The notes under the pieces: generated by a model
Seen by the model: the letters and a program-made list of their open reading frames with translations, nothing else
Told to the model about the DNA's origin: nothing
The model's database searches: none
Source of the DNA: Owenia fusiformis
Taxonomy: Eukaryota > Annelida > Polychaeta > Sabellida > Oweniidae
Length of the DNA: 64,000 nucleotides
Direction: 5' to 3'
Assembly (NCBI GenBank): GCA_903813345.2
Contig: CAIIXF020000011.1
Span: 25,536,166 to 25,600,165 of the forward strand
Shown: piece after piece, positions 6,334 through 46,507 of the stretch
Numbering within the stretch: position 1 is the stretch's first letter
How the letters are laid out: each line of letters starts with the position of its first letter
Program-made: the position numbers and the translations under genes

Positions 6334-6406
6334 TGTTATTGATTCAAGCTCCCTAAAAGTAAAAAAATAAAATGTTACTTTAATTTGATCTACACTCTAC
6401 AGTACA

Positions 6407-6753: not shown

Positions 6754-7298
6754 TTATCCCGTGCCAGGACTATAGTCCTGCAGTGAGAGCATTCTTTTGC
6801 CTGTACGATTACAACTTGGGAGAATTATCTACGCCCCTTATACTTAAGATACCTACTTCAATTGAATCCTGGGTATTTTAGCATTCTTTTCGTGTAGTTG
6901 AATCCACAATTGTCTGGGTATATCGGCAGAACAGGAACATTGTTCTTTTTCATCGAGAGATATTCCATCACTTTCCAAGATGGCGGTTGGATTTAATAGG
7001 GGATTCCCCGTTTGACTGACCCGGATGTGGCCCGGAAGCACCAAAAATGGAGGAATTTGACGGTTGAAATAAGTTAAATATTACACGCAAATATTGTGAT
7101 TAAAAACGAAAATTTCTTTGTTCTGCCGATAAACCCAGACAATTGTGGATTCAACTACAAGAAAAGAATGCTAAAATACTAAGGAATCTATCGAAATAGG
7201 TATCTTAAGAGTAAGAAGCGTAGAAAATTCTCCCATGTTGTAATCGTACAGGCAAAACAATGCTCTCACTGCAGGACTATAGTCCTGGTACGGGATAA
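6754..7298. mobile_element. 545-bp foldback element, ~200-bp TIRs, 8-bp TSD
   Basis: The ends TTATCCCG and CGGGATAA are flanked by CATGTTTC on both sides (6746-6753 and 7299-7306), an exact 8-bp target duplication. The two arms are inverted repeats for about 200 bases with a few mismatches, e.g. AGGACTATAGTCCTGCAGTG in both. The core (about 6960-7105) has no coding capacity. An 8-bp duplication fits hAT, P or Merlin transposases; the terminal bases decide none of these. Core and inner-arm sequence recurs at 42770-43730. Confidence 0.9.
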
Positions 7299-7486
7299 CA
7301 TGTTTCCTTGCGAGGGAATTGATTTCTAATTATTAAACAACCTATACAGTAGTCTACTGCATGTATTTCTTAGATATAACCATATTTCGAATCCGAATCC
7401 TATGCACATCGATATTTACCTATTCACATAAACGAATTAGCCATGCGACTAAGTATGGAAAAGAAGTAGCCCTTGCCAAAAAATAA

Positions 7487-7946
7487 GAATATAGTCCGGA
7501 GTAGGGATACTAGCGGTTACCGTTGGTTATTTGGTTTTCTGTATAAAAAGCTCTTTCTCCTTTTCTGTCCCGTCGCAGCGCCATCTAGTGTTTGATAAAT
7601 GAATCAAGGTTTATTCTCGATAGGGTAAGTACTAATCTATCAGGAAACATTTACAAGTTTGGTTAGAAACAGAATTTTTATAGATGGCGGAGTGATTTTT
7701 GAGACTATGTAGAGCAGAATAATTTTCTGAAACAGGTAGCTTTACGGTGGTAGCTCTCTCCAGATTCAGTTATCTCAAAAACGGTGTGGTCACCGTATGC
7801 TTATTTTGTAACGGCAAGCTAGACAAGACTCCAATGAACACTGGGCACTGTTTCGCTGAGCTAGATCTGTGCCCATGAATATATTATCAAATGAAACGTT
7901 ATAATGGTCGTCAATGGGATTTTTTACTGCAATCTTGACCCTATTA
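7487..7946. repeat. Module A1, representative copy
   Basis: Begins GAATATAGTCCGGAGTAGGG directly after TAA or TATTA and ends CTTGACCC followed by TATTA. I see no terminal inverted repeats and no TG..CA termini. Contains the short inverted repeat CGGTG..CACCG around copy position 310. Unrelated by eye to module A2, which occupies the same slot in the neighbouring block. Confidence 0.9.
7542..7632 (+). promoter_or_regulatory. TATA-like box and splice-like signals inside A1
   Basis: TATAAAAAG (7542-7550) is followed by a pyrimidine tract ending in CGCAG (7578) and then by a perfect-looking donor, TAGG|GTAAGTAC (GT at 7625). Order and spacing resemble a promoter, a short leader and a 5' splice site. 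It recurs in all 15 A1 copies. There is no evidence of transcription in the sequence itself. Confidence 0.35.
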
Positions 7947-8805
7947 GCAACAGGGTGGTGACAGTACTAGGGTGGGAAATAGCGTTATTTTTGTAAAAAT
8001 TACACTTTCTTAGCAATGTGTACCTTGCATCTCTAAGAAAAATCAAATTATCTGAAGAATTAGCAATTTAGATTTTCGCTGATTCAGCATTTTTCATTTT
8101 TTACCTAAAAATCACAGGTTTTGACCATTTTTGGCCTGTATTTTGTTACAGGATAGCACAAGAGGGCTGTTAGTGCTGGTTTTAAGAGGTTGTTGACAGG
8201 CTTTTATCAAATTATTACCGAATTTAAGGATTTAGCCATTATCATAGCATGTAATACAGCTTTTTCCTTTGTGTCTGAATTTTTCTTGAAAATATATGAC
8301 AAATTTGACACATTTAACCCAATAGACTGACTAAATATGGCTGAAAACAGTTACTAACATGCATGTAATTAAAACAAGAACATTGCTATGCAAAACTGAT
8401 ATGATAATTTAATATAGAAGCTCATTTACTGAAAATTAATCACTAAATAATGGCTAATTTGGGGTAATCTCTGATCAAAAATGACTAGATTTGACCATTT
8501 TTTGTTTCATGGTTCAGTGATTTTGGCAATAAACATTATGGAAGTGCGAATAAACGTTTTGACATGCTAAATATTGTGAATTTTTGTTAAGCCATAGCGA
8601 GTAGCAGTATTTCTATTGCAAAAATGGTCAGTTAGGTATAAAACTGCATGGCCCTAAAATAAATGACCCCGGGGTTAACAAAGCAGCTATAAAAGCTCTT
8701 CTATAGGTGCGATTGGGCTTAAATTGCACAAAAAGTCTTGAAACACTCTTATGTTTAAGAAAAACAAGATTTCTGGCACAAAATCATTCAACCGTGTCAC
8801 TATTA
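7947..8805. repeat. Module B1, representative copy
   Basis: Starts GCAACAGGGTGGTGACAG and ends CAACCGTGTCACTATTA. Weak inverted similarity links the two ends (TATTAG..ACA.GGT.G against TAATAGTGACACGGTTG). It shares conserved blocks with B2 at 29458-30320, notably TCATGGTTCAGTGATTTTGG (8508 here, 30022 in B2). No coding capacity. Confidence 0.9.
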
Positions 8806-11800
8806 GAATATAGTCCGGAGTAGGGATACTAGCGGTTACCGTTGGTTATTTGGTTTTCTGTATAAAAAGCTCTTTCTCCTTTTCTGTCCCGTCGCAGCGC
8901 CATCTAGTGTTTGATAAATGAATCAAGGTTTATTCTCGATAGGGTAAGTACTAATCTATCAGGAAACATTTACAAGTTTGGTTAGAAACAGAATTTTTAT
9001 AGATGGCGGAGTGATTTTTGAGACTATGTAGAGCAGAATAATTTTCTGAAACAGGTAGCTTTACGGTGGTAGCTCTCTCCAGATTCAGTTATCTCAAAAA
9101 CGGTGTGGTCACCGTATGCTTATTTTGTAACGGCAAGCTAGACAAGACTCCAATGAACACTGGGCACTGTTTCGCTGAGCTAGATCTGTGCCCATGAATA
9201 TATTATCAAATGAAACGTTATAATGGTCGTCAATGGGATTTTTTACTGCAATCTTGACCCTATTAGCAACAGGGTGGTGACAGTACTAGGGTGGGAAATA
9301 GCGTTATTTTTGTAAAAATTACACTTTCTTAGCAATGTGTACCTTGCATCTCTAAGAAAAATCAAATTATCTGAAGAATTAGCAATTTAGATTTTCGCTG
9401 ATTCAGCATTTTTCATTTTTTACCTAAAAATCACAGGTTTTGACCATTTTTGGCCTGTATTTTGTTACAGGATAGCACAAGAGGGCTGTTAGTGCTGGTT
9501 TTAAGAGGTTGTTGACAGGCTTTTATCAAATTATTACCGAATTTAAGGATTTAGCCATTATCATAGCATGTAATACAGCTTTTTCCTTTGTGTCTGAATT
9601 TTTCTTGAAAATATATGACAAATTTGACACATTTAACCCAATAGACTGACTAAATATGGCTGAAAACAGTTACTAACATGCATGTAATTAAAACAAGAAC
9701 ATTGCTATGCAAAACTGATATGATAATTTAATATAGAAGCTCATTTACTGAAAATTAATCACTAAATAATGGCTAATTTGGGGTAATCTCTGATCAAAAA
9801 TGACTAGATTTGACCATTTTTTGTTTCATGGTTCAGTGATTTTGGCAATAAACATTATGGAAGTGCGAATAAACGTTTTGACATGCTAAATATTGTGAAT
9901 TTTTGTTAAGCCATAGCGAGTAGCAGTATTTCTATTGCAAAAATGGTCAGTTAGGTATAAAACTGCATGGCCCTAAAATAAATGACCCCGGGGTTAACAA
10001 AGCAGCTATAAAAGCTCTTCTATAGGTGCGATTGGGCTTAAATTGCACAAAAAGTCTTGAAACACTCTTATGTTTAAGAAAAACAAGATTTCTGGCACAA
10101 AATCATTCAACCGTGTCACTATTAGAATATAGTCCGGAGTAGGGATACTAGCGGTTACCGTTGGTTATTTGGTTTTCTGTATAAAAAGCTCTTTCTCCTT
10201 TTCTGTCCCGTCGCAGCGCCATCTAGTGTTTGATAAATGAATCAAGGTTTATTCTCGATAGGGTAAGTACTAATCTATCAGGAAACATTTACAAGTTTGG
10301 TTAGAAACAGAATTTTTATAGATGGCGGAGTGATTTTTGAGACTATGTAGAGCAGAATAATTTTCTGAAACAGGTAGCTTTACGGTGGTAGCTCTCTCCA
10401 GATTCAGTTATCTCAAAAACGGTGTGGTCACCGTATGCTTATTTTGTAACGGCAAGCTAGACAAGACTCCAATGAACACTGGGCACTGTTTCGCTGAGCT
10501 AGATCTGTGCCCATGAATATATTATCAAATGAAACGTTATAATGGTCGTCAATGGGATTTTTTACTGCAATCTTGACCCTATTAGCAACAGGGTGGTGAC
10601 AGTACTAGGGTGGGAAATAGCGTTATTTTTGTAAAAATTACACTTTCTTAGCAATGTGTACCTTGCATCTCTAAGAAAAATCAAATTATCTGAAGAATTA
10701 GCAATTTAGATTTTCGCTGATTCAGCATTTTTCATTTTTTACCTAAAAATCACAGGTTTTGACCATTTTTGGCCTGTATTTTGTTACAGGATAGCACAAG
10801 AGGGCTGTTAGTGCTGGTTTTAAGAGGTTGTTGACAGGCTTTTATCAAATTATTACCGAATTTAAGGATTTAGCCATTATCATAGCATGTAATACAGCTT
10901 TTTCCTTTGTGTCTGAATTTTTCTTGAAAATATATGACAAATTTGACACATTTAACCCAATAGACTGACTAAATATGGCTGAAAACAGTTACTAACATGC
11001 ATGTAATTAAAACAAGAACATTGCTATGCAAAACTGATATGATAATTTAATATAGAAGCTCATTTACTGAAAATTAATCACTAAATAATGGCTAATTTGG
11101 GGTAATCTCTGATCAAAAATGACTAGATTTGACCATTTTTTGTTTCATGGTTCAGTGATTTTGGCAATAAACATTATGGAAGTGCGAATAAACGTTTTGA
11201 CATGCTAAATATTGTGAATTTTTGTTAAGCCATAGCGAGTAGCAGTATTTCTATTGCAAAAATGGTCAGTTAGGTATAAAACTGCATGGCCCTAAAATAA
11301 ATGACCCCGGGGTTAACAAAGCAGCTATAAAAGCTCTTCTATAGGTGCGATTGGGCTTAAATTGCACAAAAAGTCTTGAAACACTCTTATGTTTAAGAAA
11401 AACAAGATTTCTGGCACAAAATCATTCAACCGTGTCACTATTAGAATATAGTCCGGAGTAGGGATACTAGCGGTTACCGTTGGTTATTTGGTTTTCTGTA
11501 TAAAAAGCTCTTTCTCCTTTTCTGTCCCGTCGCAGCGCCATCTAGTGTTTGATAAATGAATCAAGGTTTATTCTCGATAGGGTAAGTACTAATCTATCAG
11601 GAAACATTTACAAGTTTGGTTAGAAACAGAATTTTTATAGATGGCGGAGTGATTTTTGAGACTATGTAGAGCAGAATAATTTTCTGAAACAGGTAGCTTT
11701 ACGGTGGTAGCTCTCTCCAGATTCAGTTATCTCAAAAACGGTGTGGTCACCGTATGCTTATTTTGTAACGGCAAGCTAGACAAGACTCCAATGAACACTG

Positions 11801-14800
11801 GGCACTGTTTCGCTGAGCTAGATCTGTGCCCATGAATATATTATCAAATGAAACGTTATAATGGTCGTCAATGGGATTTTTTACTGCAATCTTGACCCTA
11901 TTAGCAACAGGGTGGTGACAGTACTAGGGTGGGAAATAGCGTTATTTTTGTAAAAATTACACTTTCTTAGCAATGTGTACCTTGCATCTCTAAGAAAAAT
12001 CAAATTATCTGAAGAATTAGCAATTTAGATTTTCGCTGATTCAGCATTTTTCATTTTTTACCTAAAAATCACAGGTTTTGACCATTTTTGGCCTGTATTT
12101 TGTTACAGGATAGCACAAGAGGGCTGTTAGTGCTGGTTTTAAGAGGTTGTTGACAGGCTTTTATCAAATTATTACCGAATTTAAGGATTTAGCCATTATC
12201 ATAGCATGTAATACAGCTTTTTCCTTTGTGTCTGAATTTTTCTTGAAAATATATGACAAATTTGACACATTTAACCCAATAGACTGACTAAATATGGCTG
12301 AAAACAGTTACTAACATGCATGTAATTAAAACAAGAACATTGCTATGCAAAACTGATATGATAATTTAATATAGAAGCTCATTTACTGAAAATTAATCAC
12401 TAAATAATGGCTAATTTGGGGTAATCTCTGATCAAAAATGACTAGATTTGACCATTTTTTGTTTCATGGTTCAGTGATTTTGGCAATAAACATTATGGAA
12501 GTGCGAATAAACGTTTTGACATGCTAAATATTGTGAATTTTTGTTAAGCCATAGCGAGTAGCAGTATTTCTATTGCAAAAATGGTCAGTTAGGTATAAAA
12601 CTGCATGGCCCTAAAATAAATGACCCCGGGGTTAACAAAGCAGCTATAAAAGCTCTTCTATAGGTGCGATTGGGCTTAAATTGCACAAAAAGTCTTGAAA
12701 CACTCTTATGTTTAAGAAAAACAAGATTTCTGGCACAAAATCATTCAACCGTGTCACTATTAGAATATAGTCCGGAGTAGGGATACTAGCGGTTACCGTT
12801 GGTTATTTGGTTTTCTGTATAAAAAGCTCTTTCTCCTTTTCTGTCCCGTCGCAGCGCCATCTAGTGTTTGATAAATGAATCAAGGTTTATTCTCGATAGG
12901 GTAAGTACTAATCTATCAGGAAACATTTACAAGTTTGGTTAGAAACAGAATTTTTATAGATGGCGGAGTGATTTTTGAGACTATGTAGAGCAGAATAATT
13001 TTCTGAAACAGGTAGCTTTACGGTGGTAGCTCTCTCCAGATTCAGTTATCTCAAAAACGGTGTGGTCACCGTATGCTTATTTTGTAACGGCAAGCTAGAC
13101 AAGACTCCAATGAACACTGGGCACTGTTTCGCTGAGCTAGATCTGTGCCCATGAATATATTATCAAATGAAACGTTATAATGGTCGTCAATGGGATTTTT
13201 TACTGCAATCTTGACCCTATTAGCAACAGGGTGGTGACAGTACTAGGGTGGGAAATAGCGTTATTTTTGTAAAAATTACACTTTCTTAGCAATGTGTACC
13301 TTGCATCTCTAAGAAAAATCAAATTATCTGAAGAATTAGCAATTTAGATTTTCGCTGATTCAGCATTTTTCATTTTTTACCTAAAAATCACAGGTTTTGA
13401 CCATTTTTGGCCTGTATTTTGTTACAGGATAGCACAAGAGGGCTGTTAGTGCTGGTTTTAAGAGGTTGTTGACAGGCTTTTATCAAATTATTACCGAATT
13501 TAAGGATTTAGCCATTATCATAGCATGTAATACAGCTTTTTCCTTTGTGTCTGAATTTTTCTTGAAAATATATGACAAATTTGACACATTTAACCCAATA
13601 GACTGACTAAATATGGCTGAAAACAGTTACTAACATGCATGTAATTAAAACAAGAACATTGCTATGCAAAACTGATATGATAATTTAATATAGAAGCTCA
13701 TTTACTGAAAATTAATCACTAAATAATGGCTAATTTGGGGTAATCTCTGATCAAAAATGACTAGATTTGACCATTTTTTGTTTCATGGTTCAGTGATTTT
13801 GGCAATAAACATTATGGAAGTGCGAATAAACGTTTTGACATGCTAAATATTGTGAATTTTTGTTAAGCCATAGCGAGTAGCAGTATTTCTATTGCAAAAA
13901 TGGTCAGTTAGGTATAAAACTGCATGGCCCTAAAATAAATGACCCCGGGGTTAACAAAGCAGCTATAAAAGCTCTTCTATAGGTGCGATTGGGCTTAAAT
14001 TGCACAAAAAGTCTTGAAACACTCTTATGTTTAAGAAAAACAAGATTTCTGGCACAAAATCATTCAACCGTGTCACTATTAGAATATAGTCCGGAGTAGG
14101 GATACTAGCGGTTACCGTTGGTTATTTGGTTTTCTGTATAAAAAGCTCTTTCTCCTTTTCTGTCCCGTCGCAGCGCCATCTAGTGTTTGATAAATGAATC
14201 AAGGTTTATTCTCGATAGGGTAAGTACTAATCTATCAGGAAACATTTACAAGTTTGGTTAGAAACAGAATTTTTATAGATGGCGGAGTGATTTTTGAGAC
14301 TATGTAGAGCAGAATAATTTTCTGAAACAGGTAGCTTTACGGTGGTAGCTCTCTCCAGATTCAGTTATCTCAAAAACGGTGTGGTCACCGTATGCTTATT
14401 TTGTAACGGCAAGCTAGACAAGACTCCAATGAACACTGGGCACTGTTTCGCTGAGCTAGATCTGTGCCCATGAATATATTATCAAATGAAACGTTATAAT
14501 GGTCGTCAATGGGATTTTTTACTGCAATCTTGACCCTATTAGCAACAGGGTGGTGACAGTACTAGGGTGGGAAATAGCGTTATTTTTGTAAAAATTACAC
14601 TTTCTTAGCAATGTGTACCTTGCATCTCTAAGAAAAATCAAATTATCTGAAGAATTAGCAATTTAGATTTTCGCTGATTCAGCATTTTTCATTTTTTACC
14701 TAAAAATCACAGGTTTTGACCATTTTTGGCCTGTATTTTGTTACAGGATAGCACAAGAGGGCTGTTAGTGCTGGTTTTAAGAGGTTGTTGACAGGCTTTT

Positions 14801-15400
14801 ATCAAATTATTACCGAATTTAAGGATTTAGCCATTATCATAGCATGTAATACAGCTTTTTCCTTTGTGTCTGAATTTTTCTTGAAAATATATGACAAATT
14901 TGACACATTTAACCCAATAGACTGACTAAATATGGCTGAAAACAGTTACTAACATGCATGTAATTAAAACAAGAACATTGCTATGCAAAACTGATATGAT
15001 AATTTAATATAGAAGCTCATTTACTGAAAATTAATCACTAAATAATGGCTAATTTGGGGTAATCTCTGATCAAAAATGACTAGATTTGACCATTTTTTGT
15101 TTCATGGTTCAGTGATTTTGGCAATAAACATTATGGAAGTGCGAATAAACGTTTTGACATGCTAAATATTGTGAATTTTTGTTAAGCCATAGCGAGTAGC
15201 AGTATTTCTATTGCAAAAATGGTCAGTTAGGTATAAAACTGCATGGCCCTAAAATAAATGACCCCGGGGTTAACAAAGCAGCTATAAAAGCTCTTCTATA
15301 GGTGCGATTGGGCTTAAATTGCACAAAAAGTCTTGAAACACTCTTATGTTTAAGAAAAACAAGATTTCTGGCACAAAATCATTCAACCGTGTCACTATTA

Positions 15401-16259
15401 GCAACAGGGTGGTGACAGTACTAGGGTGGGAAATAGCGTTATTTTTGTAAAAATTACACTTTCTTAGCAATGTGTACCTTGCATCTCTAAGAAAAATCAA
15501 ATTATCTGAAGAATTAGCAATTTAGATTTTCGCTGATTCAGCATTTTTCATTTTTTACCTAAAAATCACAGGTTTTGACCATTTTTGGCCTGTATTTTGT
15601 TACAGGATAGCACAAGAGGGCTGTTAGTGCTGGTTTTAAGAGGTTGTTGACAGGCTTTTATCAAATTATTACCGAATTTAAGGATTTAGCCATTATCATA
15701 GCATGTAATACAGCTTTTTCCTTTGTGTCTGAATTTTTCTTGAAAATATATGACAAATTTGACACATTTAACCCAATAGACTGACTAAATATGGCTGAAA
15801 ACAGTTACTAACATGCATGTAATTAAAACAAGAACATTGCTATGCAAAACTGATATGATAATTTAATATAGAAGCTCATTTACTGAAAATTAATCACTAA
15901 ATAATGGCTAATTTGGGGTAATCTCTGATCAAAAATGACTAGATTTGACCATTTTTTGTTTCATGGTTCAGTGATTTTGGCAATAAACATTATGGAAGTG
16001 CGAATAAACGTTTTGACATGCTAAATATTGTGAATTTTTGTTAAGCCATAGCGAGTAGCAGTATTTCTATTGCAAAAATGGTCAGTTAGGTATAAAACTG
16101 CATGGCCCTAAAATAAATGACCCCGGGGTTAACAAAGCAGCTATAAAAGCTCTTCTATAGGTGCGATTGGGCTTAAATTGCACAAAAAGTCTTGAAACAC
16201 TCTTATGTTTAAGAAAAACAAGATTTCTGGCACAAAATCATTCAACCGTGTCACTATTA
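15401..16259. repeat. B1 copy lacking its A1 module
   Basis: At 15400/15401 the text runs from the B1 end ...GTGTCACTATTA directly into the B1 start GCAACAGGG. Exactly 460 bases of A1 are missing, between two copies of CTATTAG. A 72-codon open frame spans the junction only because the usual stop lies in A1; it is not a gene. Confidence 0.95.
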
Positions 16260-19200
16260 GAATATAGTCCGGAGTAGGGATACTAGCGGTTACCGTTGGT
16301 TATTTGGTTTTCTGTATAAAAAGCTCTTTCTCCTTTTCTGTCCCGTCGCAGCGCCATCTAGTGTTTGATAAATGAATCAAGGTTTATTCTCGATAGGGTA
16401 AGTACTAATCTATCAGGAAACATTTACAAGTTTGGTTAGAAACAGAATTTTTATAGATGGCGGAGTGATTTTTGAGACTATGTAGAGCAGAATAATTTTC
16501 TGAAACAGGTAGCTTTACGGTGGTAGCTCTCTCCAGATTCAGTTATCTCAAAAACGGTGTGGTCACCGTATGCTTATTTTGTAACGGCAAGCTAGACAAG
16601 ACTCCAATGAACACTGGGCACTGTTTCGCTGAGCTAGATCTGTGCCCATGAATATATTATCAAATGAAACGTTATAATGGTCGTCAATGGGATTTTTTAC
16701 TGCAATCTTGACCCTATTAGCAACAGGGTGGTGACAGTACTAGGGTGGGAAATAGCGTTATTTTTGTAAAAATTACACTTTCTTAGCAATGTGTACCTTG
16801 CATCTCTAAGAAAAATCAAATTATCTGAAGAATTAGCAATTTAGATTTTCGCTGATTCAGCATTTTTCATTTTTTACCTAAAAATCACAGGTTTTGACCA
16901 TTTTTGGCCTGTATTTTGTTACAGGATAGCACAAGAGGGCTGTTAGTGCTGGTTTTAAGAGGTTGTTGACAGGCTTTTATCAAATTATTACCGAATTTAA
17001 GGATTTAGCCATTATCATAGCATGTAATACAGCTTTTTCCTTTGTGTCTGAATTTTTCTTGAAAATATATGACAAATTTGACACATTTAACCCAATAGAC
17101 TGACTAAATATGGCTGAAAACAGTTACTAACATGCATGTAATTAAAACAAGAACATTGCTATGCAAAACTGATATGATAATTTAATATAGAAGCTCATTT
17201 ACTGAAAATTAATCACTAAATAATGGCTAATTTGGGGTAATCTCTGATCAAAAATGACTAGATTTGACCATTTTTTGTTTCATGGTTCAGTGATTTTGGC
17301 AATAAACATTATGGAAGTGCGAATAAACGTTTTGACATGCTAAATATTGTGAATTTTTGTTAAGCCATAGCGAGTAGCAGTATTTCTATTGCAAAAATGG
17401 TCAGTTAGGTATAAAACTGCATGGCCCTAAAATAAATGACCCCGGGGTTAACAAAGCAGCTATAAAAGCTCTTCTATAGGTGCGATTGGGCTTAAATTGC
17501 ACAAAAAGTCTTGAAACACTCTTATGTTTAAGAAAAACAAGATTTCTGGCACAAAATCATTCAACCGTGTCACTATTAGAATATAGTCCGGAGTAGGGAT
17601 ACTAGCGGTTACCGTTGGTTATTTGGTTTTCTGTATAAAAAGCTCTTTCTCCTTTTCTGTCCCGTCGCAGCGCCATCTAGTGTTTGATAAATGAATCAAG
17701 GTTTATTCTCGATAGGGTAAGTACTAATCTATCAGGAAACATTTACAAGTTTGGTTAGAAACAGAATTTTTATAGATGGCGGAGTGATTTTTGAGACTAT
17801 GTAGAGCAGAATAATTTTCTGAAACAGGTAGCTTTACGGTGGTAGCTCTCTCCAGATTCAGTTATCTCAAAAACGGTGTGGTCACCGTATGCTTATTTTG
17901 TAACGGCAAGCTAGACAAGACTCCAATGAACACTGGGCACTGTTTCGCTGAGCTAGATCTGTGCCCATGAATATATTATCAAATGAAACGTTATAATGGT
18001 CGTCAATGGGATTTTTTACTGCAATCTTGACCCTATTAGCAACAGGGTGGTGACAGTACTAGGGTGGGAAATAGCGTTATTTTTGTAAAAATTACACTTT
18101 CTTAGCAATGTGTACCTTGCATCTCTAAGAAAAATCAAATTATCTGAAGAATTAGCAATTTAGATTTTCGCTGATTCAGCATTTTTCATTTTTTACCTAA
18201 AAATCACAGGTTTTGACCATTTTTGGCCTGTATTTTGTTACAGGATAGCACAAGAGGGCTGTTAGTGCTGGTTTTAAGAGGTTGTTGACAGGCTTTTATC
18301 AAATTATTACCGAATTTAAGGATTTAGCCATTATCATAGCATGTAATACAGCTTTTTCCTTTGTGTCTGAATTTTTCTTGAAAATATATGACAAATTTGA
18401 CACATTTAACCCAATAGACTGACTAAATATGGCTGAAAACAGTTACTAACATGCATGTAATTAAAACAAGAACATTGCTATGCAAAACTGATATGATAAT
18501 TTAATATAGAAGCTCATTTACTGAAAATTAATCACTAAATAATGGCTAATTTGGGGTAATCTCTGATCAAAAATGACTAGATTTGACCATTTTTTGTTTC
18601 ATGGTTCAGTGATTTTGGCAATAAACATTATGGAAGTGCGAATAAACGTTTTGACATGCTAAATATTGTGAATTTTTGTTAAGCCATAGCGAGTAGCAGT
18701 ATTTCTATTGCAAAAATGGTCAGTTAGGTATAAAACTGCATGGCCCTAAAATAAATGACCCCGGGGTTAACAAAGCAGCTATAAAAGCTCTTCTATAGGT
18801 GCGATTGGGCTTAAATTGCACAAAAAGTCTTGAAACACTCTTATGTTTAAGAAAAACAAGATTTCTGGCACAAAATCATTCAACCGTGTCACTATTAGAA
18901 TATAGTCCGGAGTAGGGATACTAGCGGTTACCGTTGGTTATTTGGTTTTCTGTATAAAAAGCTCTTTCTCCTTTTCTGTCCCGTCGCAGCGCCATCTAGT
19001 GTTTGATAAATGAATCAAGGTTTATTCTCGATAGGGTAAGTACTAATCTATCAGGAAACATTTACAAGTTTGGTTAGAAACAGAATTTTTATAGATGGCG
19101 GAGTGATTTTTGAGACTATGTAGAGCAGAATAATTTTCTGAAACAGGTAGCTTTACGGTGGTAGCTCTCTCCAGATTCAGTTATCTCAAAAACGGTGTGG

Positions 19201-22200
19201 TCACCGTATGCTTATTTTGTAACGGCAAGCTAGACAAGACTCCAATGAACACTGGGCACTGTTTCGCTGAGCTAGATCTGTGCCCATGAATATATTATCA
19301 AATGAAACGTTATAATGGTCGTCAATGGGATTTTTTACTGCAATCTTGACCCTATTAGCAACAGGGTGGTGACAGTACTAGGGTGGGAAATAGCGTTATT
19401 TTTGTAAAAATTACACTTTCTTAGCAATGTGTACCTTGCATCTCTAAGAAAAATCAAATTATCTGAAGAATTAGCAATTTAGATTTTCGCTGATTCAGCA
19501 TTTTTCATTTTTTACCTAAAAATCACAGGTTTTGACCATTTTTGGCCTGTATTTTGTTACAGGATAGCACAAGAGGGCTGTTAGTGCTGGTTTTAAGAGG
19601 TTGTTGACAGGCTTTTATCAAATTATTACCGAATTTAAGGATTTAGCCATTATCATAGCATGTAATACAGCTTTTTCCTTTGTGTCTGAATTTTTCTTGA
19701 AAATATATGACAAATTTGACACATTTAACCCAATAGACTGACTAAATATGGCTGAAAACAGTTACTAACATGCATGTAATTAAAACAAGAACATTGCTAT
19801 GCAAAACTGATATGATAATTTAATATAGAAGCTCATTTACTGAAAATTAATCACTAAATAATGGCTAATTTGGGGTAATCTCTGATCAAAAATGACTAGA
19901 TTTGACCATTTTTTGTTTCATGGTTCAGTGATTTTGGCAATAAACATTATGGAAGTGCGAATAAACGTTTTGACATGCTAAATATTGTGAATTTTTGTTA
20001 AGCCATAGCGAGTAGCAGTATTTCTATTGCAAAAATGGTCAGTTAGGTATAAAACTGCATGGCCCTAAAATAAATGACCCCGGGGTTAACAAAGCAGCTA
20101 TAAAAGCTCTTCTATAGGTGCGATTGGGCTTAAATTGCACAAAAAGTCTTGAAACACTCTTATGTTTAAGAAAAACAAGATTTCTGGCACAAAATCATTC
20201 AACCGTGTCACTATTAGAATATAGTCCGGAGTAGGGATACTAGCGGTTACCGTTGGTTATTTGGTTTTCTGTATAAAAAGCTCTTTCTCCTTTTCTGTCC
20301 CGTCGCAGCGCCATCTAGTGTTTGATAAATGAATCAAGGTTTATTCTCGATAGGGTAAGTACTAATCTATCAGGAAACATTTACAAGTTTGGTTAGAAAC
20401 AGAATTTTTATAGATGGCGGAGTGATTTTTGAGACTATGTAGAGCAGAATAATTTTCTGAAACAGGTAGCTTTACGGTGGTAGCTCTCTCCAGATTCAGT
20501 TATCTCAAAAACGGTGTGGTCACCGTATGCTTATTTTGTAACGGCAAGCTAGACAAGACTCCAATGAACACTGGGCACTGTTTCGCTGAGCTAGATCTGT
20601 GCCCATGAATATATTATCAAATGAAACGTTATAATGGTCGTCAATGGGATTTTTTACTGCAATCTTGACCCTATTAGCAACAGGGTGGTGACAGTACTAG
20701 GGTGGGAAATAGCGTTATTTTTGTAAAAATTACACTTTCTTAGCAATGTGTACCTTGCATCTCTAAGAAAAATCAAATTATCTGAAGAATTAGCAATTTA
20801 GATTTTCGCTGATTCAGCATTTTTCATTTTTTACCTAAAAATCACAGGTTTTGACCATTTTTGGCCTGTATTTTGTTACAGGATAGCACAAGAGGGCTGT
20901 TAGTGCTGGTTTTAAGAGGTTGTTGACAGGCTTTTATCAAATTATTACCGAATTTAAGGATTTAGCCATTATCATAGCATGTAATACAGCTTTTTCCTTT
21001 GTGTCTGAATTTTTCTTGAAAATATATGACAAATTTGACACATTTAACCCAATAGACTGACTAAATATGGCTGAAAACAGTTACTAACATGCATGTAATT
21101 AAAACAAGAACATTGCTATGCAAAACTGATATGATAATTTAATATAGAAGCTCATTTACTGAAAATTAATCACTAAATAATGGCTAATTTGGGGTAATCT
21201 CTGATCAAAAATGACTAGATTTGACCATTTTTTGTTTCATGGTTCAGTGATTTTGGCAATAAACATTATGGAAGTGCGAATAAACGTTTTGACATGCTAA
21301 ATATTGTGAATTTTTGTTAAGCCATAGCGAGTAGCAGTATTTCTATTGCAAAAATGGTCAGTTAGGTATAAAACTGCATGGCCCTAAAATAAATGACCCC
21401 GGGGTTAACAAAGCAGCTATAAAAGCTCTTCTATAGGTGCGATTGGGCTTAAATTGCACAAAAAGTCTTGAAACACTCTTATGTTTAAGAAAAACAAGAT
21501 TTCTGGCACAAAATCATTCAACCGTGTCACTATTAGAATATAGTCCGGAGTAGGGATACTAGCGGTTACCGTTGGTTATTTGGTTTTCTGTATAAAAAGC
21601 TCTTTCTCCTTTTCTGTCCCGTCGCAGCGCCATCTAGTGTTTGATAAATGAATCAAGGTTTATTCTCGATAGGGTAAGTACTAATCTATCAGGAAACATT
21701 TACAAGTTTGGTTAGAAACAGAATTTTTATAGATGGCGGAGTGATTTTTGAGACTATGTAGAGCAGAATAATTTTCTGAAACAGGTAGCTTTACGGTGGT
21801 AGCTCTCTCCAGATTCAGTTATCTCAAAAACGGTGTGGTCACCGTATGCTTATTTTGTAACGGCAAGCTAGACAAGACTCCAATGAACACTGGGCACTGT
21901 TTCGCTGAGCTAGATCTGTGCCCATGAATATATTATCAAATGAAACGTTATAATGGTCGTCAATGGGATTTTTTACTGCAATCTTGACCCTATTAGCAAC
22001 AGGGTGGTGACAGTACTAGGGTGGGAAATAGCGTTATTTTTGTAAAAATTACACTTTCTTAGCAATGTGTACCTTGCATCTCTAAGAAAAATCAAATTAT
22101 CTGAAGAATTAGCAATTTAGATTTTCGCTGATTCAGCATTTTTCATTTTTTACCTAAAAATCACAGGTTTTGACCATTTTTGGCCTGTATTTTGTTACAG

Positions 22201-25200
22201 GATAGCACAAGAGGGCTGTTAGTGCTGGTTTTAAGAGGTTGTTGACAGGCTTTTATCAAATTATTACCGAATTTAAGGATTTAGCCATTATCATAGCATG
22301 TAATACAGCTTTTTCCTTTGTGTCTGAATTTTTCTTGAAAATATATGACAAATTTGACACATTTAACCCAATAGACTGACTAAATATGGCTGAAAACAGT
22401 TACTAACATGCATGTAATTAAAACAAGAACATTGCTATGCAAAACTGATATGATAATTTAATATAGAAGCTCATTTACTGAAAATTAATCACTAAATAAT
22501 GGCTAATTTGGGGTAATCTCTGATCAAAAATGACTAGATTTGACCATTTTTTGTTTCATGGTTCAGTGATTTTGGCAATAAACATTATGGAAGTGCGAAT
22601 AAACGTTTTGACATGCTAAATATTGTGAATTTTTGTTAAGCCATAGCGAGTAGCAGTATTTCTATTGCAAAAATGGTCAGTTAGGTATAAAACTGCATGG
22701 CCCTAAAATAAATGACCCCGGGGTTAACAAAGCAGCTATAAAAGCTCTTCTATAGGTGCGATTGGGCTTAAATTGCACAAAAAGTCTTGAAACACTCTTA
22801 TGTTTAAGAAAAACAAGATTTCTGGCACAAAATCATTCAACCGTGTCACTATTAGAATATAGTCCGGAGTAGGGATACTAGCGGTTACCGTTGGTTATTT
22901 GGTTTTCTGTATAAAAAGCTCTTTCTCCTTTTCTGTCCCGTCGCAGCGCCATCTAGTGTTTGATAAATGAATCAAGGTTTATTCTCGATAGGGTAAGTAC
23001 TAATCTATCAGGAAACATTTACAAGTTTGGTTAGAAACAGAATTTTTATAGATGGCGGAGTGATTTTTGAGACTATGTAGAGCAGAATAATTTTCTGAAA
23101 CAGGTAGCTTTACGGTGGTAGCTCTCTCCAGATTCAGTTATCTCAAAAACGGTGTGGTCACCGTATGCTTATTTTGTAACGGCAAGCTAGACAAGACTCC
23201 AATGAACACTGGGCACTGTTTCGCTGAGCTAGATCTGTGCCCATGAATATATTATCAAATGAAACGTTATAATGGTCGTCAATGGGATTTTTTACTGCAA
23301 TCTTGACCCTATTAGCAACAGGGTGGTGACAGTACTAGGGTGGGAAATAGCGTTATTTTTGTAAAAATTACACTTTCTTAGCAATGTGTACCTTGCATCT
23401 CTAAGAAAAATCAAATTATCTGAAGAATTAGCAATTTAGATTTTCGCTGATTCAGCATTTTTCATTTTTTACCTAAAAATCACAGGTTTTGACCATTTTT
23501 GGCCTGTATTTTGTTACAGGATAGCACAAGAGGGCTGTTAGTGCTGGTTTTAAGAGGTTGTTGACAGGCTTTTATCAAATTATTACCGAATTTAAGGATT
23601 TAGCCATTATCATAGCATGTAATACAGCTTTTTCCTTTGTGTCTGAATTTTTCTTGAAAATATATGACAAATTTGACACATTTAACCCAATAGACTGACT
23701 AAATATGGCTGAAAACAGTTACTAACATGCATGTAATTAAAACAAGAACATTGCTATGCAAAACTGATATGATAATTTAATATAGAAGCTCATTTACTGA
23801 AAATTAATCACTAAATAATGGCTAATTTGGGGTAATCTCTGATCAAAAATGACTAGATTTGACCATTTTTTGTTTCATGGTTCAGTGATTTTGGCAATAA
23901 ACATTATGGAAGTGCGAATAAACGTTTTGACATGCTAAATATTGTGAATTTTTGTTAAGCCATAGCGAGTAGCAGTATTTCTATTGCAAAAATGGTCAGT
24001 TAGGTATAAAACTGCATGGCCCTAAAATAAATGACCCCGGGGTTAACAAAGCAGCTATAAAAGCTCTTCTATAGGTGCGATTGGGCTTAAATTGCACAAA
24101 AAGTCTTGAAACACTCTTATGTTTAAGAAAAACAAGATTTCTGGCACAAAATCATTCAACCGTGTCACTATTAGAATATAGTCCGGAGTAGGGATACTAG
24201 CGGTTACCGTTGGTTATTTGGTTTTCTGTATAAAAAGCTCTTTCTCCTTTTCTGTCCCGTCGCAGCGCCATCTAGTGTTTGATAAATGAATCAAGGTTTA
24301 TTCTCGATAGGGTAAGTACTAATCTATCAGGAAACATTTACAAGTTTGGTTAGAAACAGAATTTTTATAGATGGCGGAGTGATTTTTGAGACTATGTAGA
24401 GCAGAATAATTTTCTGAAACAGGTAGCTTTACGGTGGTAGCTCTCTCCAGATTCAGTTATCTCAAAAACGGTGTGGTCACCGTATGCTTATTTTGTAACG
24501 GCAAGCTAGACAAGACTCCAATGAACACTGGGCACTGTTTCGCTGAGCTAGATCTGTGCCCATGAATATATTATCAAATGAAACGTTATAATGGTCGTCA
24601 ATGGGATTTTTTACTGCAATCTTGACCCTATTAGCAACAGGGTGGTGACAGTACTAGGGTGGGAAATAGCGTTATTTTTGTAAAAATTACACTTTCTTAG
24701 CAATGTGTACCTTGCATCTCTAAGAAAAATCAAATTATCTGAAGAATTAGCAATTTAGATTTTCGCTGATTCAGCATTTTTCATTTTTTACCTAAAAATC
24801 ACAGGTTTTGACCATTTTTGGCCTGTATTTTGTTACAGGATAGCACAAGAGGGCTGTTAGTGCTGGTTTTAAGAGGTTGTTGACAGGCTTTTATCAAATT
24901 ATTACCGAATTTAAGGATTTAGCCATTATCATAGCATGTAATACAGCTTTTTCCTTTGTGTCTGAATTTTTCTTGAAAATATATGACAAATTTGACACAT
25001 TTAACCCAATAGACTGACTAAATATGGCTGAAAACAGTTACTAACATGCATGTAATTAAAACAAGAACATTGCTATGCAAAACTGATATGATAATTTAAT
25101 ATAGAAGCTCATTTACTGAAAATTAATCACTAAATAATGGCTAATTTGGGGTAATCTCTGATCAAAAATGACTAGATTTGACCATTTTTTGTTTCATGGT

Positions 25201-26811
25201 TCAGTGATTTTGGCAATAAACATTATGGAAGTGCGAATAAACGTTTTGACATGCTAAATATTGTGAATTTTTGTTAAGCCATAGCGAGTAGCAGTATTTC
25301 TATTGCAAAAATGGTCAGTTAGGTATAAAACTGCATGGCCCTAAAATAAATGACCCCGGGGTTAACAAAGCAGCTATAAAAGCTCTTCTATAGGTGCGAT
25401 TGGGCTTAAATTGCACAAAAAGTCTTGAAACACTCTTATGTTTAAGAAAAACAAGATTTCTGGCACAAAATCATTCAACCGTGTCACTATTAGAATATAG
25501 TCCGGAGTAGGGATACTAGCGGTTACCGTTGGTTATTTGGTTTTCTGTATAAAAAGCTCTTTCTCCTTTTCTGTCCCGTCGCAGCGCCATCTAGTGTTTG
25601 ATAAATGAATCAAGGTTTATTCTCGATAGGGTAAGTACTAATCTATCAGGAAACATTTACAAGTTTGGTTAGAAACAGAATTTTTATAGATGGCGGAGTG
25701 ATTTTTGAGACTATGTAGAGCAGAATAATTTTCTGAAACAGGTAGCTTTACGGTGGTAGCTCTCTCCAGATTCAGTTATCTCAAAAACGGTGTGGTCACC
25801 GTATGCTTATTTTGTAACGGCAAGCTAGACAAGACTCCAATGAACACTGGGCACTGTTTCGCTGAGCTAGATCTGTGCCCATGAATATATTATCAAATGA
25901 AACGTTATAATGGTCGTCAATGGGATTTTTTACTGCAATCTTGACCCTATTAGCAACAGGGTGGTGACAGTACTAGGGTGGGAAATAGCGTTATTTTTGT
26001 AAAAATTACACTTTCTTAGCAATGTGTACCTTGCATCTCTAAGAAAAATCAAATTATCTGAAGAATTAGCAATTTAGATTTTCGCTGATTCAGCATTTTT
26101 CATTTTTTACCTAAAAATCACAGGTTTTGACCATTTTTGGCCTGTATTTTGTTACAGGATAGCACAAGAGGGCTGTTAGTGCTGGTTTTAAGAGGTTGTT
26201 GACAGGCTTTTATCAAATTATTACCGAATTTAAGGATTTAGCCATTATCATAGCATGTAATACAGCTTTTTCCTTTGTGTCTGAATTTTTCTTGAAAATA
26301 TATGACAAATTTGACACATTTAACCCAATAGACTGACTAAATATGGCTGAAAACAGTTACTAACATGCATGTAATTAAAACAAGAACATTGCTATGCAAA
26401 ACTGATATGATAATTTAATATAGAAGCTCATTTACTGAAAATTAATCACTAAATAATGGCTAATTTGGGGTAATCTCTGATCAAAAATGACTAGATTTGA
26501 CCATTTTTTGTTTCATGGTTCAGTGATTTTGGCAATAAACATTATGGAAGTGCGAATAAACGTTTTGACATGCTAAATATTGTGAATTTTTGTTAAGCCA
26601 TAGCGAGTAGCAGTATTTCTATTGCAAAAATGGTCAGTTAGGTATAAAACTGCATGGCCCTAAAATAAATGACCCCGGGGTTAACAAAGCAGCTATAAAA
26701 GCTCTTCTATAGGTGCGATTGGGCTTAAATTGCACAAAAAGTCTTGAAACACTCTTATGTTTAAGAAAAACAAGATTTCTGGCACAAAATCATTCAACCG
26801 TGTCACTATTA

Positions 26812-28529
26812 GCAACAGGGTGGTGACAGTACTAGGGTGGGAAATAGCGTTATTTTTGTAAAAATTACACTTTCTTAGCAATGTGTACCTTGCATCTCTA
26901 AGAAAAATCAAATTATCTGAAGAATTAGCAATTTAGATTTTCGCTGATTCAGCATTTTTCATTTTTTACCTAAAAATCACAGGTTTTGACCATTTTTGGC
27001 CTGTATTTTGTTACAGGATAGCACAAGAGGGCTGTTAGTGCTGGTTTTAAGAGGTTGTTGACAGGCTTTTATCAAATTATTACCGAATTTAAGGATTTAG
27101 CCATTATCATAGCATGTAATACAGCTTTTTCCTTTGTGTCTGAATTTTTCTTGAAAATATATGACAAATTTGACACATTTAACCCAATAGACTGACTAAA
27201 TATGGCTGAAAACAGTTACTAACATGCATGTAATTAAAACAAGAACATTGCTATGCAAAACTGATATGATAATTTAATATAGAAGCTCATTTACTGAAAA
27301 TTAATCACTAAATAATGGCTAATTTGGGGTAATCTCTGATCAAAAATGACTAGATTTGACCATTTTTTGTTTCATGGTTCAGTGATTTTGGCAATAAACA
27401 TTATGGAAGTGCGAATAAACGTTTTGACATGCTAAATATTGTGAATTTTTGTTAAGCCATAGCGAGTAGCAGTATTTCTATTGCAAAAATGGTCAGTTAG
27501 GTATAAAACTGCATGGCCCTAAAATAAATGACCCCGGGGTTAACAAAGCAGCTATAAAAGCTCTTCTATAGGTGCGATTGGGCTTAAATTGCACAAAAAG
27601 TCTTGAAACACTCTTATGTTTAAGAAAAACAAGATTTCTGGCACAAAATCATTCAACCGTGTCACTATTAGCAACAGGGTGGTGACAGTACTAGGGTGGG
27701 AAATAGCGTTATTTTTGTAAAAATTACACTTTCTTAGCAATGTGTACCTTGCATCTCTAAGAAAAATCAAATTATCTGAAGAATTAGCAATTTAGATTTT
27801 CGCTGATTCAGCATTTTTCATTTTTTACCTAAAAATCACAGGTTTTGACCATTTTTGGCCTGTATTTTGTTACAGGATAGCACAAGAGGGCTGTTAGTGC
27901 TGGTTTTAAGAGGTTGTTGACAGGCTTTTATCAAATTATTACCGAATTTAAGGATTTAGCCATTATCATAGCATGTAATACAGCTTTTTCCTTTGTGTCT
28001 GAATTTTTCTTGAAAATATATGACAAATTTGACACATTTAACCCAATAGACTGACTAAATATGGCTGAAAACAGTTACTAACATGCATGTAATTAAAACA
28101 AGAACATTGCTATGCAAAACTGATATGATAATTTAATATAGAAGCTCATTTACTGAAAATTAATCACTAAATAATGGCTAATTTGGGGTAATCTCTGATC
28201 AAAAATGACTAGATTTGACCATTTTTTGTTTCATGGTTCAGTGATTTTGGCAATAAACATTATGGAAGTGCGAATAAACGTTTTGACATGCTAAATATTG
28301 TGAATTTTTGTTAAGCCATAGCGAGTAGCAGTATTTCTATTGCAAAAATGGTCAGTTAGGTATAAAACTGCATGGCCCTAAAATAAATGACCCCGGGGTT
28401 AACAAAGCAGCTATAAAAGCTCTTCTATAGGTGCGATTGGGCTTAAATTGCACAAAAAGTCTTGAAACACTCTTATGTTTAAGAAAAACAAGATTTCTGG
28501 CACAAAATCATTCAACCGTGTCACTATTA
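26812..28529. repeat. Two consecutive B1 copies lacking A1
   Basis: B1 units at 26812-27670 and 27671-28529 have the same exact junction as at 15401, giving a run of three B1 modules (25953-28529). This shows that B1 can be propagated in tandem without A1. Confidence 0.95.
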
Positions 28530-28987
28530 GAATATAGTCCGGAGTAGGGATACTAGCGGTTACCGTTGGTTATTTGGTTTTCTGTATAAAAAGCTCTTTC
28601 TCCTTTTCTGTCCCGTCGCAGCGCCATCTAGTGTTTGATAAATGAATCAAGGTTTATTCTCGATAGGGTAAGTACTAATCTATCAGGAAACATTTACAAG
28701 TTTGGTTAGAAACAGAATTTTTATAGATGGCGGAGTGATTTTTGAGACTATGTAGAGCAGAATAATTTTCTGAAACAGGTAGCTTTACGGTGGTAGCTCT
28801 CTCCAGATTCAGTTATCTCAAAAACGGTGTGGTCACCGTATGCTTATTTTGTAACGGCAAGCTAGACAAGACTCCAATGAACACTGGGCACTGTTTCGCT
28901 GAGCTAGATCTGTGCCCATGAATATATTATCAAATGAAACGTTATAATGGTCGTCAATGGGATTTTTTACTGCAATCTTGACCCTAA

Positions 28988-29452
28988 GGCCAAAATGCCC
29001 TAATACGTCACTTCCGCTGAATAGAAAAAAGTAGTATTCAAAAATAAATGTAGTCCCAACACAATTGTGATCATGACGAGTCAGTAAGCTAGTATGTAGG
29101 CACAGTTGTCATCTTTTTGCAATGACAACATGCCATTTCTTCTGAAAATGCGTTTATTTGGGTTATCTGAAGGAAAATTTCGAGTCAAGTGGCGTATTAA
29201 TTTTGCCTTCATTTTTGTGAATTTAAATTTGTGTCTGCAGAGAGAGGGGGTAGTGTCACAATTGACCAATTATTTCAAAAAGTAGATGATTGGCCCCTAT
29301 TGAGTTTAGTGTCAAGATGTAGCTTAGACATAGCTTTAGAACCTCAGATAGGCCAGTGAGGCCACATAAATCCATAACTCGAGATAAAAAGTCAGGCGTT
29401 TGCCCTTTTGCCCATTGACTAGTATGGTGACGTGAATTAGGGCAGTTTTGCC
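28988..29452. mobile_element. Module A2, first copy; TIR element-like
   Basis: 465 bp. The left end GGCCAAAATGCCCTAATACG and the reverse complement of the right end GGCAAAACTGCCCTAATTCA are clear inverted repeats of about 25 bases. Outer flank TAA and inner flank TATTA fit a PIF/Harbinger-like preference for TWA, but no transposase is present. The open frames inside are shared by both copies and have no recognisable domain. Confidence 0.8.
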
Positions 29453-29457
29453 TATTA

Positions 29458-30320
29458 GTCACATATGAAAGTGACCGAAATTTTTTAAAACTACTCAGAA
29501 TCGCCCAGAATTGAAGTTTATTAGTGTGAAACATATTTTGGAAGGAGGCAAAAAGGGGAATTTTCATGAACAAATTAAATGTTTTTGCTGAATCAGCAAT
29601 TTTCGCTTTTTACCCCAAAAACCACTGATTTTGAGGATATTTGGCTACAATTTTGTCCTTAGTGACCCCTAAATGTCATTTTTTGTCGTAAATGGGGAAG
29701 CCAACGAGTTGCTATTCATAATAAAGATTGAATTTTCCATCTTATGGTTTCCAGTATAGAAAGAAGGTACATATCGGGGATGCAGTCAGAAATTGGTGAG
29801 TTAAGTGTCAATTTTTGATGTATTTGTTCACTCTGAATGACTACATTATTCGAGCTAAAAAATATCTCAAAAGTCCCAATTCTCTAGGCCAGAGTCAAAA
29901 CTGATCAAATTTGTCATCATTTTTCAAATCAGGAGGTTGTTGAATGGAATAAAGTATGAAAAAGTGATGATTTTAGTAAGATTTTGCCAAAAAGTGGGCC
30001 AAATTTGTCCAATTTTCTGGTTCATGGTTCAGTGATTTTGGCTAAAAATCGCAATATGCAATAAAATACTCAATTTCTTGACACAATACTGAAAAATGTC
30101 ACCATCAGGCAGTGGATTTCATGATGTAAATGAAAAACTAGTCAAATTTAAAGGAAAACCATTGGGTTCTTGGAAAAATGACCCCAGGGGTAATGAAGTA
30201 GCCATATTTTTCATAATTGCTGTCAGAATATTCTTAAACTGCACAAAACTACTTGAAAAACTCTAGTAAATTGGAAAAACGCAATTTAAAGCCAGAAATC
30301 ATCCAACCATGTGGCTATTA
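29458..30320. repeat. Module B2, diverged relative of B1
   Basis: 863 bp against 859 for B1. The conserved blocks are in the same order: TTTGCTGAATCAGCA near the start, TCATGGTTCAGTGATTTTGG at 30022, AAATGACCCC.GGG near 30175, and AATCATYCAACCRTGT before the terminal CTATTAG. The rest is strongly diverged. Confidence 0.85.
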
Positions 30321-30785
30321 GGCCAAAATGCCCTAATACGTCACTTCCGCTGAATAGAAAAAAGTAGTATTCAAAAATAAATGTAGTCCCAACACAATTG
30401 TGATCATGACGAGTCAGTAAGCTAGTATGTAGGCACAGTTGTCATCTTTTTGCAATGACAACATGCCATTTCTTCTGAAAATGCGTTTATTTGGGTTATC
30501 TGAAGGAAAATTTCGAGTCAAGTGGCGTATTAATTTTGCCTTCATTTTTGTGAATTTAAATTTGTGTCTGCAGAGAGAGGGGGTAGTGTCACAATTGACC
30601 AATTATTTCAAAAAGTAGATGATTGGCCCCTATTGAGTTTAGTGTCAAGATGTAGCTTAGACATAGCTTTAGAACCTCAGATAGGCCAGTGAGGCCACAT
30701 AAATCCATAACTCGAGATAAAAAGTCAGGCGTTTGCCCTTTTGCCCATTGACTAGTATGGTGACGTGAATTAGGGCAGTTTTGCC
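30321..30785. mobile_element. Module A2, second copy
   Basis: Repeats 28988-29452 with no difference noticed. Its left flank is CTATTA, from B2. Its right flank is TAACAC, which is single-copy DNA, so this is the outer end of the block. Confidence 0.85.
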
Positions 30786-30788
30786 TAA

Positions 30789-33077: not shown

Positions 33078-33579
33078 CAGAGTGAGCCAAAAAAAGGTAA
33101 CCCAAACAAATGTATGTAAATAACTCAGTCATTCAGCATGGGCTCAAAATCATATTTGGCACAACTAAACCTTAATCAATGTCATTGGTCTGTCCCTTAG
33201 AGTCACGATTTTATGGTCATCTACAAAACATGGTCCAAATGCCGAAATGACTGACTGGACATAAATCCCACCAGCTTTTTATCTTTGGGTCTATTTTTTC
33301 TACACTAACAACCCTTGAAACATTGAAACAAGGGATAAGAAGGAAGATGAGAGCCATAACACAAAATGTTTATGCTTGTGTTGTGAACAAGACTACGCCC
33401 AATATGTTCAAGTTGGCCTCCAGACTTGACGCCCATATTTTATGGCATGTTTTGTAAAATGGCCATAAAATCATGACCACTAGAGATACAACCAGAACAA
33501 CGGCAACGCCAAAGCGTAGCGAATACCATCGAACACCCATGAATGGCATTTTTACAAACAAAGTATATAGCAAAAATGC

Positions 33580-36449: not shown

Positions 36450-36451
36450 TA

Positions 36452-37074: not shown

Positions 37075-37076
37075 TA

Positions 37077-46506: not shown

Positions 46507-46507
46507 A

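Follow-up and report, generated by a model that had tools for sequence, protein, structure and literature searches.

Two adjacent blocks of noncoding modules with a related core and unmatched terminal modules in Owenia fusiformis, and their possible origin from a mobile element

In bivalves, arrays of the element biv-TRIM (TRIM, terminal-repeat retrotransposon in miniature) are described as terminal direct repeats (TDR) and an internal domain in the layout TDRx_I(x-1) (PMC6934838). Long arrays of the plant TRIM Cassandra (PMC7215508) and tandem retrotransposons with long terminal repeats (LTR) (PMC11899658) are also reported with a repeat-core-repeat order and shared terminal repeats. The coral CMITEs of Acropora, i.e., miniature inverted-repeat transposable elements (MITEs), are reported as noncoding, with an inner region that varies less from family to family than the ends and with tandem arrays (PMC2872659); the spacers of these arrays are highly similar (PMC2872659). 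In this study, two adjoining blocks of modules were found in a window of Owenia fusiformis contig CAIIXF020000011.1, i.e., the whole 64-kb stretch of DNA that was analysed. The modules are named A1 and B1 in block 1, and A2 and B2 in block 2. Block 2 has the form A2-B2-A2 and fits TDR2_I1 of the bivalve arrays. With about even confidence, both blocks are taken as copies of a noncoding, non-autonomous mobile element, in which direct terminal repeats A stand around a constrained core B.

The blocks were recognized by self-BLAST and by segmentation at the hexamer TATTAG. Their adjacent position and like architecture, both stated in the original prediction, were found again, and so were the module lengths, i.e., 460 bp for A1, 859 bp for B1, 465 bp for A2, and 863 bp for B2 (core counted for A1 and B1). 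All modules lie in one orientation, and A stands at both outer ends of each block. Block 1 had been described as A1-(B1-A1)n, which proved inexact. It contains 15 A1 and 17 B1 in the order (A1 B1)x6, B1, (A1 B1)x8, B1, B1, A1, i.e., A is absent at 15396, 26807, and 27666. The copies of each kind in block 1 are identical, 15/15 A1 over 454 bp and 17/17 B1 over 853 bp, so that 32 modules hold one sequence per kind and no difference in 21,311 bp of compared copies. Because the copies are without any difference, block 1 was amplified very recently, unless the copies were levelled by the assembly. The description of block 2 as A2-B2-A2 with identical A2 copies was confirmed. In self-BLAST, 28987-29454 and 30320-30787 are identical at 468/468 bp, flanking bases included. 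The core of B2 lies at 30316-30321, and its last G also opens the right A2. With identical copies, a single sister unit adjoining, and three exact joints without A1, the locus is unusually clean.

The inner joints share one short core. TATTAG had been reported at every inner boundary, and this holds in an extended form, since the heptamer CTATTAG was found at 33/33 inner joints (31/31 in block 1 and 2/2 in block 2). Five joint types occur, i.e., A1>B1 (14), B1>A1 (14), B1>B1 (3), A2>B2 (1), and B2>A2 (1). Besides those of the joints, the array has one more TATTAG, at 29519 within B2. Outside the array, four CTATTAG are found on the + strand in 40,690 bp. The joints truly share this core, since it is present at all of them yet rare elsewhere. 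On the left side of the core, B1 and B2 alone are alike, with 16/20 bases, and the other five pairs agree in 4 to 10 of 20. On its right side, the pairs agree in 2 to 7 of 20 (5/20 for B1 and B2), and none is alike.

The outer ends of the blocks differ from the inner joints. The core is not present there, and TAA(G/C) is found instead, with the readings AAATAA-G at the left end, CCCTAA-GG at the contact of the blocks, and GCCTAA-C at the right end. The frequency of TAA in the flanks is 0.026 per position. TAA at the three places is a trace, suggestive only, of two successive insertions into an empty site with one TAA, because the block boundaries were partly set by eye and one locus was available.

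At the three B1-B1 joints, A1 plus one core is absent to the base, and a single core stands between consecutive B1. No A-A joint was found in the array by core segmentation. These A-less joints are the best evidence for a modular view of the array, and they show that, in the course of a very recent amplification, a module was lost or was missing. They fit cassette loss and deletion between 7-bp direct repeats equally well. Because the 7-bp repeat lies on both sides of A1, ordinary slippage or annealing could drop A1 precisely. For a Tourist-like element, precise MITE loss aided by target-site microhomology has been reported (PMC4561436). A single event may underlie the three joints, given the identity of the copies. 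The site of a tyrosine recombinase, as described for Cryptons, has inverted arms of 11-13 bp around a core of 6-8 bp (PMC3212892). Such arms were not found around CTATTAG at the five joint types with spacers of 5-8 bp. The best agreement was 6-8 of 12, and 360/3000 random positions in the control scored 8 or more.

As judged by alignment, B1 and B2 are homologous. Local alignment gave z scores of 22.9 and 31.3 in two scoring schemes, with 0/200 shuffles as good in each, and nhmmer gave an E value of 2.5e-23. The earlier statement of homologous B modules with conserved blocks in order agrees with this; strongly conserved stretches follow each other in the same order, separated by variable ones. 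A conserved inverted motif pair is found in B1, in the 3' third, and in B2 (Table 1). When one mismatch is allowed, the motif AAATCANNCAACC is counted 36 times in the window, all within B modules, against 2.7 expected; it was written after the motif pair had been seen, and with identical B1 copies B1 and B2 each contribute effectively two sites. Because the conserved blocks sit in B, it is likely that B would carry the cis requirements of the element. In the alignment made by MAFFT, columns 1-110 gave z scores of 0.6 (local), 0.1 (global), and 0.3 (banded), columns 201-500 gave 0.4, 2.6, and 3.6, respectively, and other variable slices gave local z scores from -0.8 to 3.0. These slices were cut out of the alignment, so such tests favour B.

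Between A1 and A2, no similarity was detected by local alignment on both strands (z -0.9 to 0.3), by global alignment (z 0.85), or by nhmmer (no match at E<=10). The banded test gave z scores of 1.2-1.7 for A, and the same test gave 3.6-4.4 for the variable part of B. At the 3' ends, A1 and B1 are identical at 10/20 bases by eye, but 483/500 shuffles were as good in a 40-bp comparison. The likeness of the 3' ends of A1 and A2 is weakly above shuffles (27/500 as good, as one of 12 comparisons). The modules, cut without the core, are 454 bp (A1) and 464 bp (A2) long, with a G+C content of 39.2% and 38.8% from the base composition. The near-equal length and G+C point mildly to a shared origin or a shared constraint on size.

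The limits of these alignments were examined by a divergence simulation, in which homologues of A1 with redrawn sites were compared by global z in 30 trials per setting. With 50 or 60% of the sites redrawn, z was never <3. With 70% redrawn, z was <3 in 20% and at or below 0.85 in 0% of the trials. With 80% redrawn, these values were 90% and 23%, the latter at or below the observed 0.85. If they are homologous, A1 and A2 must be extremely divergent, which is the only homology option left by these comparisons. On alignment, A1 and A2 would be either unrelated or diverged beyond the variable part of B. The claim that they are unrelated agrees with the comparisons in part, i.e., no similarity appears in any of the four, and about 80% redrawn sites mostly hide homology. 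Likewise, the homology by alignment that had been named as refuting the prediction was not detected, and extreme divergence is still compatible with this. The dissimilarity of A1 and A2 alone does not imply replacement, because parts of B are also unalignable. That this is not ordinary divergence of one satellite monomer is unproved, with B partly unalignable and A1 and A2 nearly equal in length and G+C.

The right A2 has terminal inverted repeats, i.e., GGCCAAAATGCCCTAAT..ACGTCAC against the reverse complement of the A2 3' end. The inverted ends have a score of 18, which was reached by 0/500 shuffles, and a length of ~25 bp. Inverted ends in A2 but not in A1 speak for different kinds of ends. 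The CpG content of A1 and A2 also speaks weakly for this, with observed/expected ratios of 0.87 in A1, 0.52 in A2, 0.40 in B1, and 0.37 in B2. Because A1 is without inverted ends, unlike A2, the same end chemistry is not established for both blocks.

A protein-coding reading was rejected. The longest stop-to-stop frame has 58 aa in an A1-B1-A1 unit and 117 aa, on the minus strand, in A2-B2-A2; the latter (29256-29606, 116 residues tested) has no Pfam match at E 0.001. An array of structured RNAs or RNA genes was also rejected, i.e., no Rfam family reached the gathering score in the whole window, no tRNA was found in the tRNA search, and the folds are mostly near shuffles. Two weak Rfam matches below threshold lie in 27660-30800 (E 0.44 and 3.2). 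Folded as single-strand DNA, the 3' 307 nt of B1 have a z score of -0.85 (24/100 shuffles as good) and those of B2 -1.60 (7/100). The whole modules have -0.89 for A1 and -2.73 for A2 (0/100 shuffles as good), and the strength of the A2 fold is ascribed to its inverted ends.

Relatives were searched in collections of viruses and prokaryotes. Exact scans with conserved B strings gave 0 hits in viral contigs and 0 in genome contigs. Two short B patterns were present in at least 120 and in 61 viral-contig stretches, respectively. BLAST of the four modules against 181 viral-contig stretches aligned only short pieces (18-27 bp), most of them at the search string, with a best E of 0.007, and in none of the 120 matches listed did CTATTAG follow the string with the expected spacing. 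The viral-contig matches are taken as chance. That no relatives were found says little, because the collections consist of viruses and prokaryotes.

In the reading of both blocks as copies of a mobile element with terminal repeats A, two elements, related through B and with different ends, would have entered the same TAA site successively. Insertion at TAA would have occurred through the ends of A. One element would have stayed single as A2-B2-A2. The other would have been amplified to 15 A1 and 17 B1, perhaps through unequal exchange between A repeats or through an A-B circle that was copied in rolling-circle mode. In the same burst, A1 may have been lost exactly between the flanking CTATTAG, once or up to three times. 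The difference between A1 and A2 would then mean either that evolution is much faster in the ends than in the core or that the ends were separately acquired. This reading draws on A at both ends of each block, the A-B-A form of block 2, TAA at the outer ends and the contact, the inverted ends of A2, the ordered conserved blocks of B, the short frames with no Pfam or Rfam match, the identical copies, and the precedents in bivalves and corals.

Several results weigh against this reading. The three A-less joints break TDRx_I(x-1), with 17 B1 against 14 expected. Terminal inverted repeats were found neither in A1 (327/500 shuffles as good) nor in B1 (106/500) and B2 (158/500). In nhmmer, the four modules had no further copy in the flanks of the window, with nothing better than E 0.49. 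Signals of LTR retrotransposons were also not found, i.e., neither a TGG common to the starts of B1 and B2, as for a primer site, nor a purine tract within the final 20 nt of B. Moreover, the identical copies and the exact copy number may partly be a contribution of the assembly.

The array can also be explained as an ordinary complex satellite, which is regarded as rather unlikely. A-B would then be one unit of 1.3 kb, and A1-B1 and A2-B2 would be old subfamilies in which A diverged beyond recognition, only the constrained blocks of B stayed alignable, and the A-less joints arose as deletions between short direct repeats. Tandem, near-identical noncoding units are what is seen here, and in a young array neighbouring copies are usually near-identical. 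The equally unalignable parts of B, the near-equal length and G+C of A1 and A2, and the masking of homology at about 80% redrawn sites also agree with a satellite. However, A is less similar than even the variable B in the banded test, in which the slicing favours B, inverted ends are present in A2 and absent from A1, and both blocks terminate with A at TAA. Another explanation, held to be improbable, is that A is an independent MITE-like DNA transposon inserting at TATTAG of a B satellite. The A-less joints would be empty sites or precise excisions, and the A-bounded blocks would have moved as composites. The inverted ends of A2, the 6-bp TATTAG on either side of inner A, and the precise B-B joints are consistent with such a transposon, but with TATTAG inside and TAA outside no single duplication length fits. 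In addition, A1 is without inverted ends, and two unrelated elements would be needed at the same base of B.

An array of a TRIM or LTR retrotransposon is already weakened and is given a slight chance. LTRs commonly diverge faster than internal parts, which was counted for this explanation. A-(B-A)n is also the published tandem layout of TRIM (PMC6934838; PMC7215508). Against it, A has no TG start or CA end, the heads of B1 and B2 have no common TGG, and purine runs within the final 20 nt of B reach at most 3 on the + strand and 1-2 on the - strand. Inverted ends of ~25 bp on A2 and three B-B joints without A do not agree with it either. Finally, the original prediction assumed that A was replaced like a cassette. 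The two-slot layout with B kept and A different was upheld, whereas an exchange at the short core was not established. In such an exchange, a recombinase at CTATTAG would release A or B circles and insert others in the same orientation, as in integrons. This is possible and not favoured, and its chance is considered very small. It would account for CTATTAG common to all five joint types, for A missing exactly at the core at three joints, for the uniform direction of the modules, and for two unmatched A types in one slot. However, inverted recombinase arms are absent at the core, only two A types and zero A-A joints occur, the 7-bp repeat suffices for ordinary deletion, and the outer ends have no core. 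Just as doubtful would be a whole integron-like noncoding system in an animal-type genome, in which a CTATTAG recombinase swaps A modules of fixed size and B lineages carry unrelated A.

Table 1. Positions of the blocks, modules, joints, and flanking trinucleotides in the window.
Feature	Position	Strand	Remark
Block 1	7488..28986	+	15 A1 + 17 B1; self-BLAST, core segmentation
First A1	7488..7947	+	460 bp with core
Further full A1 (starts)	8807, 10126, 11445, 12764, 14083, 16261, 17580	+	
Further full A1 (starts, continued)	18899, 20218, 21537, 22856, 24175, 25494	+	
Last A1	28531..28986	+	454 bp same as in the others; end CCCTA abuts block 2, without TATTAG
First B1	7948..8806	+	859 bp with core; 17 identical copies
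Inverted motif pair, B1 3' third	8508..8796	+	arms 8508-8525, 8779-8796
B1-B1 joint without A1	15396..15401	+	exact at TATTAG
B1-B1 joint without A1	26807..26812	+	exact at TATTAG
B1-B1 joint without A1	27666..27671	+	exact at TATTAG
Block 2	28988..30785	+	A2-B2-A2, both A2 identical
Left A2	28988..29452	+	GGCC...GCC, 465 bp
B2	29459..30321	+	863 bp; homologous to B1 by alignment
Inverted motif pair, B2	30023..30311	+	arms 30023-30038, 30296-30311
Right A2	30321..30785	+	terminal inverted repeats
TAA, left outer end of block 1	7484..7486	+	
TAA, contact of both blocks	28985..28987	+	
TAA, right outer end of block 2	30786..30788	+	

The window of 64 kb contains only 19 stop-to-stop frames of at least 100 aa, the longest of 336 aa, and many inverted and tandem repeats, and by these features it looks eukaryotic. 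An inverted repeat at 6754-7298, with arms of 201 nt that are 88% complementary and 143 nt apart, looks like a long-armed MITE; it ends ~190 bp left of block 1. The element at 36450-37076 has 31-nt inverted ends, 97% complementary (TACAGGGTGTCC...), which we take to be mariner-like. A perfect pair of 30-nt inverted repeats, 1,944 nt apart, was found at 51431-53434, as in a young DNA transposon of ~2 kb. A second tandem array at 37582-39008, with a period of ~174 bp (or 354 bp) and 85-88% matches, is presumably much older than block 1. A repeat of 135-141 bp with a palindromic GGTGGCCATTTTT motif lies in both orientations at 33573-34341 and 46244-46510. Among the open frames, the one at 48428-49000 (191 aa) has an exonuclease domain (Pfam RNase_T, E 2.3e-07). 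The 336-aa frame at 5386-6396 and a 113-aa frame at 59526-59867, both on the minus strand, have no Pfam match at E 0.001; the latter presumably resembles the helix-turn-helix part of a pogo/Tigger-type transposase.

Of the known systems compared, Helitrons and Helentrons have a 5' TC, a 3' CTRR, and a 3' hairpin. Such ends were not found in the modules; the 3' fold of B is near shuffles, and for A the 3' ends were folded only within whole modules. Integron cassettes are modules of the same direction that are joined at one short core, and a module can be missing exactly. Unlike in integrons, no recombinase was seen here, the core has no inverted arms, there are no coding cassettes, and the DNA is eukaryote-like. 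PIF/Harbinger-like MITEs have a 3-bp target duplication, TAA or TTA. At this one locus, inverted ends are present in A2 only, TAA stands at the outer ends, and TATTAG flanks inner A. Cryptons are described with short terminal direct repeats and a proposed exit as circles, and animal Cryptons as being without terminal repeats (PMC3212892). Here, CTATTAG lies between all inner modules, the outer ends are without the core, A2 has inverted ends, and recombinase arms were not found.

The terminal repeats of LTR elements and TRIM have TG...CA ends. A1 starts with AATATAGT (outer context TAAG) and ends with GACCCTA, and A2 starts with AGGCCAAA and ends with TTGCCTA, i.e., neither has TG...CA. A2-B2-A2 has the direct terminal repeats and the short noncoding internal domain by which TRIM are recognized. 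In TRIM, a primer binding site is reported to open the internal domain and a polypurine tract to close it (PMC6934838). The TDRs of biv-TRIM are given as 202-218 bp and the internal domain as 77-80 bp, with a purine tract (PMC6934838), whereas the element here has no purine tract or TG/CA ends, and has inverted ends in A2 and A-less joints. Because TG/CA ends, a shared primer-site start, and a purine tract were not found, the element would not be filed as a TRIM on its sequence. The LTRs of Cassandra are reported to contain a 5S RNA sequence (PMC7215508), whereas no Rfam family reached the gathering score here.

The MITE-derived satellites Xstir and miDNA4 of Xenopus are alike in being a mobile element with short direct repeats around an amplified unit, but their tandem repeat is described inside one MITE (PMC12628747), and here whole A modules recur between B. 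Among the titles and abstract openings listed in the literature searches, none described an animal tandem array in which unrelated terminal modules are exchanged in one slot, and the CMITE and TRIM papers were closest. CMITEs are reported to be ~100 bp long, with inverted ends of 13-14 bp and a TTAA target duplication (PMC2872659). In contrast, the ends here are direct repeats of ~460 bp around a core of 859-863 bp, with TAA as the putative target. The TTAA duplication and the end motif CC[C/T]T given for CMITEs were not found, and the flanks are TAA(G/C). The resemblance to CMITEs would thus be a likeness in behaviour and not membership. If the ends can be changed while the core is kept, this would bear on how non-autonomous elements come to be moved by different transposases, and cross-mobilization has been raised as a possibility for the coral CMITEs (PMC2872659).

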